Shown: positions 14,111-34,849 of the stretch, one piece after another
How positions within the stretch are numbered: position 1 is the stretch's first letter
How the letters are laid out: every line of letters starts with the position of its first letter
NCBI GenBank assembly: GCA_017999915.1
Contig: JAGNKX010000006.1
Location: 1 to 64,000, forward strand
Length of the DNA stretch: 64,000 nt
Origin: Spirochaetota bacterium
GTDB taxonomy: Bacteria > Spirochaetota > UBA4802 > UBA5550
Reading direction: 5' to 3'
Translations under genes and position numbers: made by a program
The notes under the pieces: model-generated
Told to the model about the DNA's origin: nothing
Database searches by the model: none
The model's input: only the letters and a program-made list of their open reading frames with translations

Positions 14111-14238
14111 GGCTGTTTCATGCCCCCCTCGTTGTATGTTTTAACCATACCAATGCTAGCATATCCGCATTAATTAGTCAAGAACATTGACTCCGGGGGC
14201 ATCTTCGGGCCGTAACCTGAAACCGGTGACCGCGATCG

Positions 14239-14967
14239 TCACGAAACAATGTCTTTGAGGTCCTCGTAGTACTTGCGTCCCATGGGGATGGTGGTTTTTT
14301 CATCGTCGTCGAGGAAGATGACGTATTGGCCGCCGCTGTAGTATTTCACGTGGGAAACATAATCGAAATTGGCTATGTACTGCTTGTGAACGCGCTTGAA
14401 GTTCTTCACCGGCAGCCTGCCGGCGATATCCTTTAAGAGGCTGTGGATCCTGAGGTCTTTTGCGGTTGTATGGACCACCGTGTGCTTCGCCTGCGACTCC
14501 AGGTAGATGATTTCGTCAAAGGGAATGATGTGATGGTTGCGGTCGTCCCTGCAGGAGAGCCCGAGGGCGCCCATGGGTCTTTGCCCTGAAGAGGGCTTCC
14601 CGATCATGGAGAGGGCCCGGTCCACGGCCTTGTTGAAGCGCTCCCTGTCGAAGGGCTTGAGGATATAATCGATGGCGCCCAGCTCGAAGGCCTTTATGGC
14701 GTACTGGTCGTAGGCGGTGGTGAAAATGACATAGGGAAGGCGGGTGAGACGCTCCACCACCTCAATGCCGGACAACACCGGCATGTTGATGTCGATGAAA
14801 AGCAGGTCGTAGGCGCCGGCGTTGATCTTGTCAAGGGCCTCATCTCCGGTTTCGGCGAAATCCTCGAACTTCAGCTCGGACCGCTCCTCTATGTAGCGCA
14901 GGAGGAGCTTACGGGGATACGGCTCGTCCTCCGCGATGAATACCCGTATGGCTTTCTTGCTATCCAT
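14239..14967 (-). CDS. LytTR-type response regulator (242 aa)
   Basis: Receiver domain (1-120) with acidic pair E13-D14, phospho-acceptor D59 in FIDINMP and K104 in YILKPFD. A LytTR DNA-binding domain follows at about 140-240 (ITYLE-like segment FDEIIYLESQAKHT, FKRVHKQYIANFDYV, TTIPMGRKYYEDL). LytTR regulators (AgrA, LytR, AlgR) bind tandem 9-bp-type repeats one to two helical turns apart. The start at 14967 overlaps the end of the sensor gene by 8 bp, so sensor and regulator are translationally coupled. Likely target: the direct repeat at 20083-20117 upstream of this operon. Confidence 0.93.
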   Translation of the reverse strand: MDSKKAIRVFIAEDEPYPRKLLLRYIEERSELKFEDFAETGDEALDKINAGAYDLLFIDINMPVLSGIEVVERLTRLPYVIFTTAYDQYAIKAFELGAIDYILKPFDRERFNKAVDRALSMIGKPSSGQRPMGALGLSCRDDRNHHIIPFDEIIYLESQAKHTVVHTTAKDLRIHSLLKDIAGRLPVKNFKRVHKQYIANFDYVSHVKYYSGGQYVIFLDDDEKTTIPMGRKYYEDLKDIVS

Positions 14968-17900
14968 GGCGCAGCTCCTTCTTAAGCGCGTACATGATGG
15001 TGGCCCTGGCGCCGTCCTTGACGTTCTCGATGACAAGGTCCGAATCGGCGGAGTGGAACCGCAGGCGGTCGCGGATGTTGCCCAGCGTCCGGCCGTAGGG
15101 GTCGGGAGCGGTAAGTCCTTCGCCGTTGTCGGTGATCTCAATCTTCAGCATGTCCCGCTCCAGCGCGGCCCGCACGTCGATGCGGCAGGAGTCCCTTTTC
15201 TTCCGGAACCCGTGCTTGATGCAGTTCCCGACCAGGGGCTGGATGATGAGGGGCGGCACCATCAGCGGGCCGAGTTTCGGCGGCGCGCTCAGGGAGAAGG
15301 AGAACCTGTCCTCCAGCCTGATCCGCTCGAACTCCAGGTAGTGCTCCGTGAAGCGCCACTCGTCCTGGAAGGGCACCAGGGTGTCGAAGGAGCGGTCGGT
15401 GAAATAGCGGCAGATCTCCGCGAAGTTGACCAGGGCCCTGTCCGCGACGGCCGGGTCTATCTGCAGCAAACCGTGTATGGTGTGGATGGCGTTGTAGATG
15501 AAGTGGGGACGCATGCGCTCCTGCAGGTTCTTGTAGCGGGCGTCCTCGTACTGGCGCAGGATGTTGTCCCTGAGCCGGATCGACTCCTCCTGCTCGCGGT
15601 AGAGCCGCGCGTTTTCCAGGGCGATGCCGATCTCGGAGGCGAGGAAGAGCAGTATCTCGGGGCTCACCGACGCGAAGGTGTCGGCGGTGATGCTGTTCTC
15701 CATGTAGATGATGGCGGACGTCTTTCCCAGGTTCCCCACCTTGAAGCAGAGGATCGATTTCGGCCGTCGTTCGGCCAGGTACGGATCGGCGCCGAAGGCG
15801 TCGGACCCGCGGGCGTCGTTGAGGGAGATGGCCTCGCCGGTCCGCCACACGTAGTGGATGACGGACAGGGGCAGCGTTTCTTCGCAGAGGGGTTCGGCGC
15901 GAAGGAGCTCGAGGCGGTTCTTCGCCGGCTCGATCTCTCCCTCGATGAGAAGGCACCCCCGCCGCTCCATGAGGATGGCCACCTTCTGGGCGGAAACGTA
16001 TTTCACCGCCGCGGTCATGATGGTTTCCAGGAGGCGATCGATGCGGATCTCCCCCATGATCTGGCGGGATATATCAAGAAGGGTATCTGCGGGGAGGGCG
16101 CGGTCGCCGATTTGCCTGCCGATGACGGGGGCCCGGCGTACCATCAGGATGTCGGCATAGCGACGTTCAAGGTCCCGGACCTTGCGCTCGGCGCCCCATT
16201 TTTTATAGGCGTCCCGGGCCTTCAGGAGATATATGCCGGCGAAGTCCGCCTTTCCCCGGCCGAGCCAGAACTTCCCGGCCAGCTCGCTGGCGATGGCCTC
16301 GTCCTGGACGAAGCCGTTGTCGCGGGCCGCCTCTATGGCGCGGTCGTACAGGGCCATGGCGTCCGGGACGTTGTCCACGATCCGGGAAATCTCGGCGTCC
16401 ATCAGGAGGTACTTATGTTTAAAATTTTCCGGGCATTGGCCGGAGAGAATTTTCATGAAGTCCCTGTGTTGCGTCATGGCCGAGGCGTACAACTCCTTGT
16501 CGCTCTCCGTGGACGATGGATAAAGAGCCGCCATGGACAGTGTCATGTAATAATAGATTTCCGGTATTATGTACAGCCCCTTGAAAATATGGATAATTTC
16601 TTTAGCCTGCTTCAGGAGGCGATAAGCTGTATCGTATTCTCCGAGGATGAAACGCGCCCCCCCTTCGATGGCTTGTAAATAATTAAGAGGGAACGGAATG
16701 GTGTCAGTGGGCCATTGATTCGCCAGATCATATGTTTTTTTGTTATATATCCCGAGGCCTCCCTCTGAATCTTCTTTAAGGAATATAACTGACACAAGTA
16801 GGGACTCGGTTATATACAGGGTGAGCCTGTCATCGATTTTTTTAAGATAACCACGGGTAGATAAGACCGATTGTTGAACGGTGTCGAGTTTTTTTCCTTG
16901 GTAATAATCATTGCCGACAATATGGGAATAGAGGTCGCCGGTGTGCTTCAGGTTGCCAGATTCGATTCCTGCCTTTATCCCTTTCATGTTTATGAATTCT
17001 GTGTCTTTTAGTGAGAGATGAAAGGGAGCTATGAAGTTGGCGAAGATGAGGCATGTTTCGCAGATAGACGATTTGGACCCAAGCGTTTCGGCAAGGTCCA
17101 TGGCAAGGCGGCCGAATTGATAGCCCACGTTTGTATGGGGCATCTGATCATTCAGGATCCTGCCATAGTGAAGGTATCCCGGTACTGATTCAGGGGCGTT
17201 GCCGGATTCCAGGGAGATTCTGATCATGGTCATGATAAGAAGATCGTTTATTGACGAATTACTGTAGTGAGCGGGTAATAATAAATCACTGAGGATCCGC
17301 ATCGCGGTTCTCATCTTCAGGTCCTTCATGGGAGGGAGTCCCATCAGGGACGATATCTCTTTACGGTACAGGCCTTTCTTGACTACGGCTTGTAATTCCT
17401 TTCGCTGTTCATCCGGATTTGTCGTGTTTATATCAATGCCAAGGGTCCGGAGGATTTCCAAACCTATGTCCAGTGCCTCCCTGTGCCTGGTGAACTGGGT
17501 CGTATACATGACAACGAGGATGTTTTTAAGATTTGCCGTTTCAATTTCATCGCCGGTGTAGGCGACCGCCTTCTCAATGATCGGTTCGACCCGGTCGTAA
17601 TTGTGGTTGAGGAATTCGGAATCGGCCAGCTCCAGGTGCACGCAGTAGGCCAAATGATGATGGCGTTCCCATATATTTTTCGCCGATCCCTGAAGGGAAT
17701 AGAGATGATAATAGGCGGTCCTGAAATAGGGAAGGGCCGTTTCAAAGGCGCCCATCATCTTCGCCTTCCTGCCGGCGAGGTAGTTAAGGTCCGCCACGTT
17801 GGCCCGCTCTTCTTCGTCCAGTATCTCGGAGGCCCCGTTATACTGGTCCGCAATGGCGAAGATGTTGTCCGTCAATCCCTCCGGCAGGGCGTTTGCGAAG

Positions 17901-19993
17901 ACCATGATGGCGATGCGGTAGTGGACGGCCGCCCGGTCTTTGCTCGTCATCATCCGCCGGGCCGCCTCCTGGACCCGGTCATGGACGAAGCGGAACGAAA
18001 ATCCTTCCGGTACGACCAGCCCTTCGTCGATGAGGGCGGCCAGGGCCGGCTCCATCGAGGTGGCCCGCATCCCCCGGGCGCAGGTGAGAACGTCGCCGCT
18101 GAAGGTCGAGCCGATGCAGGAGGCTATCATCAGGAGCTCCCGCTGGTCCGCGGGGAGGCCGTTTATCTTCGCCGTGAGAAAATCGATGACATTATCCGTG
18201 GACGGCAGCTGCCGTATGCTTTCCAGGTCCCAGGTCCATCCCCTCCGCGATGCGCGGCGCACCAGGGGCTCCCGTGCTATGCCCAGAAGAAATTCATGGA
18301 TGTAAAAGGGGTTCCCCATGGTTTTCTCATGGACCAGCTCCGCCAGGGGCGCGGCCTTTACCGGGGATGCGGTGAACATGTCCCCGATCATCAGGGCCGC
18401 GGCTGACCGCTTGATCGGCCCGAGGTCGATATGGATAATCTCTTTACCGGGGGAGAGGGCGGCGATGGCGGCGGTCAGGGGGTGTTCCGGACCGGTCTCG
18501 CCGCTTCTGTAGGCGCCGATGACGCAGAGGTTCCCCGTCTCCCCGCTCGATGCCAGGGCCTTGAGGAACTCCAGGCTCGCCGGGTCGGCCCAGTGGAGGT
18601 CGTCCAGGAAGATAACGAGGCTATTCCCTTCTGAAGCGAAGACCCGGGCGAATTTCTCCAGGTACCGGTGCAGTCGGTTCATGGCCGATACCGGGTCCGC
18701 GGCCGGAACCGGGTCGGCTGTCCCGATGATCATCTGGAGCTCCGGCACCAGGTCCATGATGAGCTTCGTGTTGGGGCTCAGGGCCTCGCCGATCCTTGTC
18801 TTCCAGGACCCTATCTCGCTGTCTTTGAGCTTCAGCAGTTGGCGCGCCAGGCCGCCGAAGGCCCCGGTAAAGGCGCTGAAGGGTATGTCCCTGCGGTACT
18901 GGTCGAACTTGCCCTGACAGAAAAAGCAGTTGTCCGCTATAAGGGTTTTTCGGAATTCCCTCACCAGGGCCGTTTTACCAGCGCCGGTGTCGCCGGAAAC
19001 CATGACCAGGACGTTGGCGCCCTTTTCAGCCGCGCCGTATGCGGCTGACAGGGCCGCGAGGTCCTGTTCCCTGTCATAGAGACGGTCGGGGATGACCAGG
19101 CGTCCGCTCCTGTCGCTGCGGCCCAGGGGAAAGGACCTGAGCCTGCCGGATTTTTCAACCATGGCCAGGCATTTTTTCAGGTCTTCCCCGAGGCTGCGGG
19201 CGCTCTGGTAACGCTCCTCGGGATTCTTGCCGAGGAGCCTCATGATGATGTTCGAAATAACGGGCGGAATCTCTCCGTTCAACCGTCGTGGAGGAGCGGG
19301 TTTTTCCGTCAGGTGCGCGTAGATGATGTCGGTCGGATTGTCCCCGTTGAAGGGGGGCGCGCCGGTCGCAGCCTCATAGAGGACCGCGCCCAAAGAATAG
19401 AGGTCCGACCTGCGGTCAGGGGCGCGGTTCACCTTGCCGGTCATTTCGGGCGAGATATAGGACAGCCACTGCAGCGGCCGATGATCGAGGAACGATCCCG
19501 CTTCCGCCATGGCCGATATGCCCGAGGCGCGCTCGAAGCCCGTTATGGCGGCCATGGAGCCGTTCCCGCCGCCGGCACGGTCGTCGGTAACGAATATCGA
19601 CCAGGGGCTGATGTTGTTGTGAATGAGATGCTGTTCGTGGATGCCGGCCAGGATCTCCGCGAGGCCCAGGGCGAGGGAGAGAAAGCCGCTTATGCCGGGC
19701 CATCCCAGCCGGCCCGAAAGCGCCAGGGGCCTGCCGGGAAAATCCTCCAGCACCAGGGCCGGGTTCCGGTTATAGCGCATGACCTGAAGCGCCCGTATGA
19801 TGCCGCCACAGGTGAGGCCGTCAATGGTCGCTTTTTCCTTTTCGAGGAGCTCTGAGGCGTTCTCCACGGATTGTTCCGGCGCGATCTTGACCAGCACGGA
19901 CGTATTGTCATCGGTCCTGACGGCGCGGCATAACATGATCGACCCGTTATTGAAAAGGGTCTCGTTGATCGTTAACACGCAGGTAGTGCCCAT
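14960..19993 (-). CDS. Giant sensor: pseudokinase + AAA ATPase + helical repeats + GAF + LytS-type histidine kinase (1677 aa)
   Basis: Domain order: Ser/Thr-kinase-like fold 1-280; P-loop AAA/MalT-like ATPase about 300-600 with Walker A GDTGAGKT (333-340) and Walker B FLDD (461-464); TPR-like helical region about 600-1250; GAF about 1290-1450; His_kinase (LytS/YehU type) with PHFIYN phospho-acceptor His near 1497, then a HATPase with its N-box near 1590 and DNGEG. The kinase part keeps a Lys (LVKI) but has HNNISPWS where HRDxxxxN is expected and TGF in place of DFG. The Asp residues needed for catalysis are missing, so this part is probably a pseudokinase. Cytosolic, no membrane helix. Partner: the overlapping LytTR regulator. 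Promoter at 20045-20072. Confidence 0.92.
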   Translation of the reverse strand: MGTTCVLTINETLFNNGSIMLCRAVRTDDNTSVLVKIAPEQSVENASELLEKEKATIDGLTCGGIIRALQVMRYNRNPALVLEDFPGRPLALSGRLGWPGISGFLSLALGLAEILAGIHEQHLIHNNISPWSIFVTDDRAGGGNGSMAAITGFERASGISAMAEAGSFLDHRPLQWLSYISPEMTGKVNRAPDRRSDLYSLGAVLYEAATGAPPFNGDNPTDIIYAHLTEKPAPPRRLNGEIPPVISNIIMRLLGKNPEERYQSARSLGEDLKKCLAMVEKSGRLRSFPLGRSDRSGRLVIPDRLYDREQDLAALSAAYGAAEKGANVLVMVSGDTGAGKTALVREFRKTLIADNCFFCQGKFDQYRRDIPFSAFTGAFGGLARQLLKLKDSEIGSWKTRIGEALSPNTKLIMDLVPELQMIIGTADPVPAADPVSAMNRLHRYLEKFARVFASEGNSLVIFLDDLHWADPASLEFLKALASSGETGNLCVIGAYRSGETGPEHPLTAAIAALSPGKEIIHIDLGPIKRSAAALMIGDMFTASPVKAAPLAELVHEKTMGNPFYIHEFLLGIAREPLVRRASRRGWTWDLESIRQLPSTDNVIDFLTAKINGLPADQRELLMIASCIGSTFSGDVLTCARGMRATSMEPALAALIDEGLVVPEGFSFRFVHDRVQEAARRMMTSKDRAAVHYRIAIMVFANALPEGLTDNIFAIADQYNGASEILDEEERANVADLNYLAGRKAKMMGAFETALPYFRTAYYHLYSLQGSAKNIWERHHHLAYCVHLELADSEFLNHNYDRVEPIIEKAVAYTGDEIETANLKNILVVMYTTQFTRHREALDIGLEILRTLGIDINTTNPDEQRKELQAVVKKGLYRKEISSLMGLPPMKDLKMRTAMRILSDLLLPAHYSNSSINDLLIMTMIRISLESGNAPESVPGYLHYGRILNDQMPHTNVGYQFGRLAMDLAETLGSKSSICETCLIFANFIAPFHLSLKDTEFINMKGIKAGIESGNLKHTGDLYSHIVGNDYYQGKKLDTVQQSVLSTRGYLKKIDDRLTLYITESLLVSVIFLKEDSEGGLGIYNKKTYDLANQWPTDTIPFPLNYLQAIEGGARFILGEYDTAYRLLKQAKEIIHIFKGLYIIPEIYYYMTLSMAALYPSSTESDKELYASAMTQHRDFMKILSGQCPENFKHKYLLMDAEISRIVDNVPDAMALYDRAIEAARDNGFVQDEAIASELAGKFWLGRGKADFAGIYLLKARDAYKKWGAERKVRDLERRYADILMVRRAPVIGRQIGDRALPADTLLDISRQIMGEIRIDRLLETIMTAAVKYVSAQKVAILMERRGCLLIEGEIEPAKNRLELLRAEPLCEETLPLSVIHYVWRTGEAISLNDARGSDAFGADPYLAERRPKSILCFKVGNLGKTSAIIYMENSITADTFASVSPEILLFLASEIGIALENARLYREQEESIRLRDNILRQYEDARYKNLQERMRPHFIYNAIHTIHGLLQIDPAVADRALVNFAEICRYFTDRSFDTLVPFQDEWRFTEHYLEFERIRLEDRFSFSLSAPPKLGPLMVPPLIIQPLVGNCIKHGFRKKRDSCRIDVRAALERDMLKIEITDNGEGLTAPDPYGRTLGNIRDRLRFHSADSDLVIENVKDGARATIMYALKKELRHG

Positions 19994-20044
19994 TTGATGC
20001 CCGGTTGTGTCTATGTATATCGGTTACAGAAATAGATAACGACA

Positions 20045-20072
20045 ATAGTATCCATATATATTGTTTTGTCAA
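20045..20072 (-). promoter_or_regulatory. Sigma70-type promoter of the sensor/LytTR operon
   Basis: On the minus strand TTGACA (20072-20067), a 16-bp spacer, then TACTAT (20050-20045). It lies about 50 bp before the ATG of the sensor gene. The direct repeat at 20083-20117 begins 11 bp upstream of the -35 box, a position suited to activation. Confidence 0.65.
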
Positions 20073-20082
20073 ACAGGTTAGG

Positions 20083-20117
20083 GTGTGGTTCATTCCCTAA
20101 AAGTGCGGTTCATTCCC
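20083..20117. promoter_or_regulatory. 15-bp direct repeat with 20-bp period between divergent promoters
   Basis: GTGTGGTTCATTCCC (20083-20097) is repeated as GTGCGGTTCATTCCC (20103-20117), a single difference in 15. Tandem same-orientation sites two helical turns apart, containing GTTCAT, suit a LytTR dimer; the published consensus ends in GTTN(A/G)(T/G). The repeat is 8 bp upstream of the rightward -35 and 11 bp upstream of the leftward -35, so one bound dimer could activate both the sensor operon and the rightward transcript. Confidence 0.6.
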
Positions 20118-20124
20118 CCGGGTA

Positions 20125-20153
20125 TTGACAAAAAAATGAACTTGATTTATTCT
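20125..20153 (+). promoter_or_regulatory. Strong sigma70-type promoter reading right
   Basis: TTGACA at 20125-20130, a 17-bp A/T-rich spacer and TATTCT at 20148-20153. Predicted transcription start near 20160. No gene on this strand follows before the converging gene that ends at 20679, so the transcript should be short and independent. Confidence 0.65.
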
Positions 20154-20159
20154 TAAAAA

Positions 20160-20343
20160 GTAAGATCAAAAGGAGAATTCTTATACTTATAAAGGAGGAG
20201 TTCTGGAACTAATTCTTTAAATGTTACGCGGGGGGATGTGAAATGCAATCCCTGAGATTGCATTATCATGTTTGAGTGTAACATCTGCAGCACGACCGTT
20301 AACAGAAGCCCGGGGCAGTTGGGTACCCCGGGTTATTTTTTTT
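20160..20343 (+). ncRNA. Candidate structured small RNA, about 185 nt
   Basis: Lies between a near-consensus promoter and an intrinsic terminator. Helices: AGAATTC (20174-20180) with GAGTTCT (20198-20204), leaving AAAGGAG in the loop; a perfect 9-bp stem AATGCAATC/GATTGCATT (20242-20264); and the terminator stem (20309-20332). Two ribosome-site-like runs (AAAAGGAG near 20168, AAAGGAGG near 20191) are not followed by a usable ORF. The only reading frames are a 10-codon one at 20243 and a 46-codon one at 20268 that starts inside the hairpin stem and reads through the terminator. No Rfam family recognised. The several GGA motifs would suit a CsrA-binding or anti-Shine-Dalgarno RNA; this is inference. 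Confidence 0.5.
20309..20343 (+). terminator. Intrinsic terminator of the candidate small RNA
   Basis: CCCGGGG (20309-20315), 10-nt loop, CCCCGGG (20326-20332), then TTA and eight T residues. Classic rho-independent form. Confidence 0.75.
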
Positions 20344-20369
20344 CGATTGCGGCAACAGCCATTAATAGC

Positions 20370-20395
20370 GGAAGCCACCCTCCCGGGTGGCTTCC
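20370..20395. repeat. 11-bp hairpin after the terminator
   Basis: GGAAGCCACCC-TCCC-GGGTGGCTTCC, perfect arms with a 4-nt loop and no T run. It may be a second, backup 3' structure for read-through RNA from 20160 or a 3' element for the leftward strand. The remaining bases to 20678 show nothing I can name. Confidence 0.5.
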
Positions 20396-20678
20396 TACGA
20401 ACCGTTGATCATAGATGTTCCTTGAACCCATATTCTTCAGCTTTTATCACATCTGCTTTAATCAAGCTTAAGATCGCACTTGCGGTGCTGATTCTTTAGT
20501 GACAGGCTGAACGTCTGTAATTAATATAAAAAGCATTGGTCGATTAATCAAGTTTTTTGAATGAAAAAACAGAAATATTTTTTTAAAGCACAAATCGGGC
20601 CACGGGGTAATCTGGTGAGGATTTAATGACGGATAAGGTTGTGAGCAAAGACCATGTTGTCCGGCCCGGGCGGGCCCT

Positions 20679-34391: not shown

Positions 34392-34675
34392 CGGTACAAT
34401 CTCCATGCAGCAGAATATGGAAAACATGTTGAGCCGATGAAACAGTCAGCCGGCGATGCTGATAATTGGAAGTGGAACTATTTGTCTCCGCTGATGGTAT
34501 CATCGGGCTGTTCTTTCGTCAAACCATTAATTGCACCCAATGGCGCGGGGTGGCCCCGGTTTCATGATGATGCGCGGCGCTTCAGGGATATGCACCATAA
34601 TGTCATACTGAAATACATGATAAAATTATTTGACGAGTACTTGACGCCGGGAGGGTATTTTAGTATTGTTGTATT

Positions 34676-34752
34676 GCCATGGGGTGGTTCCTTAAGGAGC
34701 CTGAGATTATACCCGATGAACCTGCTCTGGGTAATGCCAGCGAAGGGAGCCA
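34676..34752 (+). promoter_or_regulatory. TPP riboswitch (thi box)
   Basis: Matches the conserved TPP aptamer: GGGGTGGTTC, the CTGAGATTATACCC pyrimidine-sensing helix J3, then GAACCTG and CTGGGTAATGCCAGCG with the closing GAAGGGA. It senses thiamine diphosphate and precedes thiM-thiE-thiC-thiL on the same strand by 280 bp. A small CTCAC/GTGAG hairpin follows near 34773-34795, but I see no clear terminator, and the ribosome site of thiM is far away, so the expression platform is unclear. A MITE-like element lies between it and thiM. Confidence 0.93.
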
Positions 34753-34849
34753 AGGCCAATAATCCGATCTCCTCACGACAAACCCTCCGGTGAGTATATA
34801 TGGCATAAGGTATAGTCATTAGATAAAATAATATCAGTATCAAAAAATA

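Follow-up and report, generated by a model that had tools for sequence, protein, structure and literature searches.

A LytTR sensor-regulator pair of a Spirochaetota genome with a probable operator in front of a candidate regulatory RNA

The direct repeat located between the divergent promoters of a LytTR sensor-regulator pair in the Spirochaetota assembly GCA_017999915.1 is very probably a LytTR operator, since the geometry of the repeat and a following TTGACA box was conserved beside orthologous sensors as well as beside other LytTR genes of related genomes. The window, i.e., the whole stretch of DNA that was analyzed, comprised 64,000 nucleotides of contig JAGNKX010000006.1, and binding of the regulator to the repeat is predicted from sequence comparison. 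We give even chances to the reading that the locus is a self-contained LytTR cassette whose regulator activates a promoter for a functional regulatory RNA. As judged from its family, the cytoplasmic sensor would integrate a signal and phosphorylate the LytTR regulator encoded by the overlapping gene. The regulator would bind as a dimer to the tandem GTTCATTCC half-sites, of which the operator character is supported by comparison, and would activate the adjacent right-reading promoter. From this promoter a terminated RNA of ~183 nt with no credible ORF would be transcribed, most likely, by its anatomy, a trans-acting regulator. The same operator probably also controls the sensor operon, which would result in autoregulation. 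The features are listed in Table 1.

Table 1. Positions and strands of the features of the LytTR locus and of the neighboring RNA2 in the window.
Feature	Position	Strand	Details
LytTR response regulator	14239..14994	-	251 aa; Response_reg and LytTR (Pfam)
Sensor	14960..19993	-	1677 aa; Pkinase, AAA_16, GAF, His_kinase (LytS type), HATPase (Pfam)
Promoter-like site of the sensor-regulator operon, TTGACA-16-TACTAT	20045..20072	-	Promoter scan
Operator half-site 1, GTGTGGTTCATTCCC	20083..20097	+	Core G at about -72 from the predicted start
Operator half-site 2, GTGCGGTTCATTCCC	20103..20117	+	Core G at about -52 from the predicted start
Target promoter, TTGACA-17-TATTCT	20125..20153	+	Promoter scan; TTGACA at fixed distance in relatives
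Predicted short RNA	20160..20342	+	~183-186 nt; start placed from the -10 box
Orphan Shine-Dalgarno, AAAGGAGGA	20191..20199	+	No ATG, GTG or TTG at usable distance
Central long hairpin	20221..20284	+	64 nt; z -5.5, 0/200 shuffles
Intrinsic terminator, GCCCGGGG..CCCCGGGT then T8	20307..20342	+	Sequence and fold
Cassette limits (approximate)	14195..20347		Block missing at this site in sister species
RNA2, unannotated structured RNA candidate	20368-20518	-	Conservation, promoter, fold
RNA2 promoter, TTGATT-17-TATATT	20551-20523	-	Conserved

Both left-reading genes claimed in the preliminary description, the large sensor and its overlapping LytTR regulator, were found with a gene overlap of 35 bp and with Pfam domains in agreement. 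The regulator scored above the cut-off for LytTR (PF04397, 78.8 bits) and for the receiver domain (PF00072, 78.2 bits), and the receiver context YDLLFIDINMP is conserved. The sensor matched the LytS-type histidine kinase family (PF06580, 61.6 bits) with an intact H-box (RMRPHFIYN, with PHFIYN) and N-box (NCIKHGF), and it also contains a TPR-like part. The N-terminal Ser/Thr kinase is degenerate, with HNN replacing HRD and GFE replacing DFG. Given the receiver and LytTR domains and the LytS-type kinase with its H- and N-boxes, the gene pair is assigned by sequence to the LytS/LytTR two-component systems. The sensor belongs to the class of dual Ser/Thr-histidine kinases (HstK type), described from cyanobacteria and Leptospira, in which a kinase is joined to GAF and histidine kinase domains (PMC1262709). 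It departs from them in that its N-terminal kinase is devoid of catalytic motifs and its histidine kinase, of LytS type, is paired with LytTR. The sister species G002 encodes two orthologs of the sensor (46-47% identical to that of the window), and a full-length ortholog with the same architecture was found in G028, from another family of the order; regulator orthologs were present in both genomes. The related-locus search with the whole sensor as query returned no locus.

The 15-bp direct repeat with a 20-bp period and the near-consensus rightward promoter were both located as previously described. The two half-sites are identical in 14 of 15 positions and separated by TAAAA, and the repeat ends 7 bp before the rightward TTGACA (8 bp counted from GTTCRTTCC). 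The two 9-nt repeats, the 11-nt spacer and the nearby -35 box conform to the format of a LytTR operator, published sites consisting of repeats of 9-11 nt that are 11-13 nt apart (PMC4847170). Moreover, the critical Gs of PspoZ, the promoter of the C. difficile sRNA spoZ, are positioned at -72/-51 (PMC10602386), compared with about -72/-52 in the window when the start is placed at 20160. The rightward and the leftward promoter were the two best matches in 3 kb (11 found, 2.7 expected from shuffles). The leftward -35 box sits 10 bp from the operator, and the same distance was found at both G002 sensor loci, so that the geometry is conserved on both sides.

A DNA search of 148 relatives recovered the repeat region at three sites in G002, two of them directly upstream of the sensor orthologs, and at one further site in the own genome, on contig C12. 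All five sites (window, C12 and three in G002) follow the pattern GTTC[AG]TTCC-11 nt-GTTC[AG]TTCC-8 nt-TTGACA, the first half being ATTCATTCC in one case. When a gap of 7-8 nt was allowed, the same box was found immediately downstream of other LytTR genes in G004, G007, G009, and G035. Judging by domain names read from sequence, we take three of these loci to encode an FMN-binding-LytTR protein followed by a flavodoxin and one to encode a membrane LytTR protein with FecR next in line. When any tandem repeat preceding a -35 box was searched for, a divergent site was revealed beside the full-length sensor ortholog in G028 and a site beside a LytS-type sensor in G011; in mononucleotide-shuffled sequence, only 0.03 occurrences per 10 kb are expected of a 9-bp tandem repeat at 20-22 bp before a TTGAC box. 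Among 84,980 species genomes, the full box was matched on only 4 contigs. This conservation beside orthologous sensors and other LytTR genes strongly supports the interpretation of the repeat as an operator.

Two observations were made alongside. A Ruminococcaceae MAG, far from the spirochaetes, contains two LytTR-like boxes of like form before TTGACA (L090, CADBOC010000071.1, 2724 and 3803). In three genomes (L075, L076, and L077) a fusion of an FMN-binding (pyridoxamine-oxidase-like) domain with LytTR recurs, followed by the same operator and then by flavodoxin; the FMN-binding-LytTR/flavodoxin pair resembles a one-component LytTR system for redox sensing.

The transcript predicted downstream of the rightward promoter is poor in ORFs and ends in an intrinsic terminator, in agreement with the preliminary description; ORFs that start within it and end before the terminator have at most 11 codons. 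Its minimum free energy (20160-20345) was -56.4 kcal/mol (z -3.1 to -3.3), and the fold signal was concentrated in the long hairpin and the terminator, with z -0.5 for the first 60 nt. After removal of the terminator z was only -2.4, and ~9% of the control tiles (7/80) reached -2. The orphan Shine-Dalgarno is perfect (duplex -11.6 kcal/mol). No Rfam family matched the transcript at gathering or relaxed thresholds. A single-sequence covariance model (R1) recovered only itself from 44 genomes of the order (0/43 others), and a DNA search for relatives of the RNA was likewise empty. Two further identities of the region were rejected: a REP/MITE repeated palindrome, as the region occurs only once in the genome, and a CsrA sponge, as its 5 GGA motifs are in the range of shuffled sequences (p ~0.23). 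On these comparisons, the RNA half of the proposal appears weaker than the operator half, the RNA being confined to one species among the 44 genomes of the order. The sensor-to-RNA circuit suggested earlier is thus partly supported, strongly so in its operator part, with conserved geometry, whereas its RNA part has no homolog in the 43 other genomes of the order; as a whole, it appears plausible from sequence.

Comparison with related genomes outlined the cassette limits. The flanks of the locus (a 275-aa gene on the left and the element from 20361 onward on the right) are 140-200 bp apart in G001, G003, and G004, compared with 6.2 kb in the window, and the corresponding site of G002 is empty as well. 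The missing block, gained here or lost there, consists of the regulator, the sensor, the operator, the RNA and its terminator and nothing else. Its right edge lies just beyond the terminator, within ~5 bp of the T-run, and the RNA is therefore part of the cassette and no accident of its surroundings. The operators of G002 lead to a 279-aa probable lipoprotein, a 400-aa beta-propeller (Lactonase family) protein and a 288-aa TPR protein, and that of G028 to a 117-aa protein. When repeat and hairpins were looked for together beside orthologous sensors, as had been proposed, the repeat was present whereas the hairpin RNA was found at none of these loci, the divergent target being a protein gene at every one. 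The operator is thus conserved and its output is not, with an RNA here and differing proteins elsewhere. We tentatively put forward the possibility, in which our confidence is limited, of a transferable LytTR cassette of uncultured spirochaetes in which the operator is fixed and the output behind it can be exchanged, with lipoproteins or other proteins in relatives and a species-specific regulatory RNA here.

The same facts bear on the chief alternative, in which operator and promoter are functional while the transcript is an inert remnant of a target gene, typically one for a lipoprotein or a secreted protein, that lost its ORF and kept the 5' UTR, Shine-Dalgarno and terminator. Protein genes occupy the slot at orthologous loci, the RNA is species-specific, the target slot abuts the edge of the cassette, and a perfect Shine-Dalgarno without a start codon fits a lost ORF. 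However, the long hairpin and the strong terminator are both intact, unlike the result of random decay, and no coding remnant was recognizable: the longest readable frame (MFECNIC...) has no Pfam match and runs through the terminator. We regard an inert remnant as rather unlikely. It is improbable that the transcript serves as mRNA of a tiny peptide, e.g., MQSLRLHYHV from 20243 or MLRGGM from 20221. A G-rich stretch upstream of the ATG at 20243 could pair with the anti-Shine-Dalgarno (-9.4 kcal/mol), and RNAIII likewise encodes a peptide, delta-hemolysin (PMC4227749), but these frames are very short, have no homolog and start within the 5' arm of the stable hairpin.

A further question is which protein reads the operator. 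The own genome contains only four LytTR genes, the window regulator and those on contigs C17 (a second LytTR response regulator), C8, and C18, and this number, together with the almost identical boxes adjoining FMN-binding LytTR proteins in sister genomes, which indicate that the box is not unique to the window regulator, would allow the operator to be read mainly by one of the other three. Against this, the box accompanies this sensor in G002, none of the kind adjoins the C17 and C8 genes, and the C18 gene, encoding a 957-aa membrane protein, is immediately followed by its own variant (L098 6127; CGCCGTTCATGC twice with a 21-bp period, then TTGACA), which leads to a 201-aa probable lipoprotein. 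Another main reader is accordingly held to be highly improbable. The window regulator probably has at least one further genomic target: a second perfect operator copy with TTGACA was found at G000:C12:32382-32423 (L035 8383-8424), followed by a ~170-nt leader and a DUF4180 gene, with no LytTR gene adjacent. This leader and the window RNA are alike by eye, but their folds differ and a shared fold was rejected. A near match in the own genome (C6:267480) has no promoter, lies inside a gene and was treated as chance.

For the reading of the locus as a LytTR cassette with an RNA output, precedents exist in three Firmicute systems, in which LytTR regulators switch on RNAIII, VR-RNA with VirT and VirU, and SpoZ (PMC4227749, PMC2838878, PMC10602386). 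The preliminary description had pointed to staphylococcal agr, but VirR/VR-RNA (PMC2838878) and RgaR/SpoZ (PMC10602386) are closer in operator position and promoter type. RgaS-RgaR/SpoZ of Clostridioides difficile shares with the window locus a LytTR-class (VirR-like) regulator and a promoter with two direct repeats, through which the regulator activates an sRNA in C. difficile (PMC10602386). It differs in that the VirS/AgrC-like kinase RgaS is an orphan, its gene not lying next to that of RgaR, in that it is a Firmicute system, and in that SpoZ function was shown genetically. In the VirS-VirR system of Clostridium perfringens, which controls VR-RNA, VirT, and VirU, paired direct repeats are likewise positioned immediately before the -35 box, and the regulon is a mixture of protein genes and regulatory RNAs (PMC2838878). 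Its box sequence is different, and it was shown experimentally. We know of no VirS-VirR RNA that is encoded divergently from the sensor. The AgrC-AgrA/RNAIII system of Staphylococcus aureus is alike in its LytTR regulator and in its divergent promoters, one of which serves the sensor operon and the other an effector RNA, in the window a candidate (PMC4227749). It is unlike the window locus in having repeats for each promoter, suboptimal spacers of 18/20 bp (17 here) and a peptide-sensing membrane kinase. RNAIII, which is ~500 nt long, is partly coding, whereas the window transcript holds only the short frames noted above. No agr-type peptide or export gene was recognized among the ORFs between 12 and 24 kb, and the sensor is cytoplasmic and multi-domain; with no AgrC-type membrane sensor and accompanying peptide genes, the locus does not belong to the agr systems.

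To our knowledge, no LytTR-to-sRNA circuit has been described outside the Firmicutes, and here it would be combined with a giant cytoplasmic pseudokinase-AAA-TPR-GAF sensor. No description of such a circuit in spirochaetes was found in the literature searched, the coverage of which was partial. If the proposal is true, the locus represents a LytTR-to-sRNA circuit in a new phylum, and if the RNA is functional, the LytTR-to-RNA design of agr, VirSR, and RgaSR arose or spread beyond the Firmicutes with an unrelated sensor. The operator is defined and searchable by half-site, spacing and distance to the -35 box (about ten loci), so that regulons can be predicted from sequence in a poorly studied spirochaete lineage. 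Exchange of the output behind a fixed operator would provide a tractable case of regulatory rewiring.

Just outside the cassette, a second structured RNA candidate, RNA2, was found in 6/6 genomes of the genus, where the matched part is 75-88% identical and RNA2 mostly adjoins a FecR-type gene. Its fold is branched and ends in a GGAAGCCACCC/GGGUGGCUUCC hairpin; 97% of cells are paired, and two helices show compensatory changes. RNA2 had no match in Rfam. Its covariance model found a convincing relative in G007, from another genus (E 2e-8); those in G008 and G006 were weaker. The case for a non-coding RNA is stronger for RNA2 than for the cassette RNA. Finally, Rfam gave a single hit in the window, a TPP riboswitch at 34669-34765 (+).
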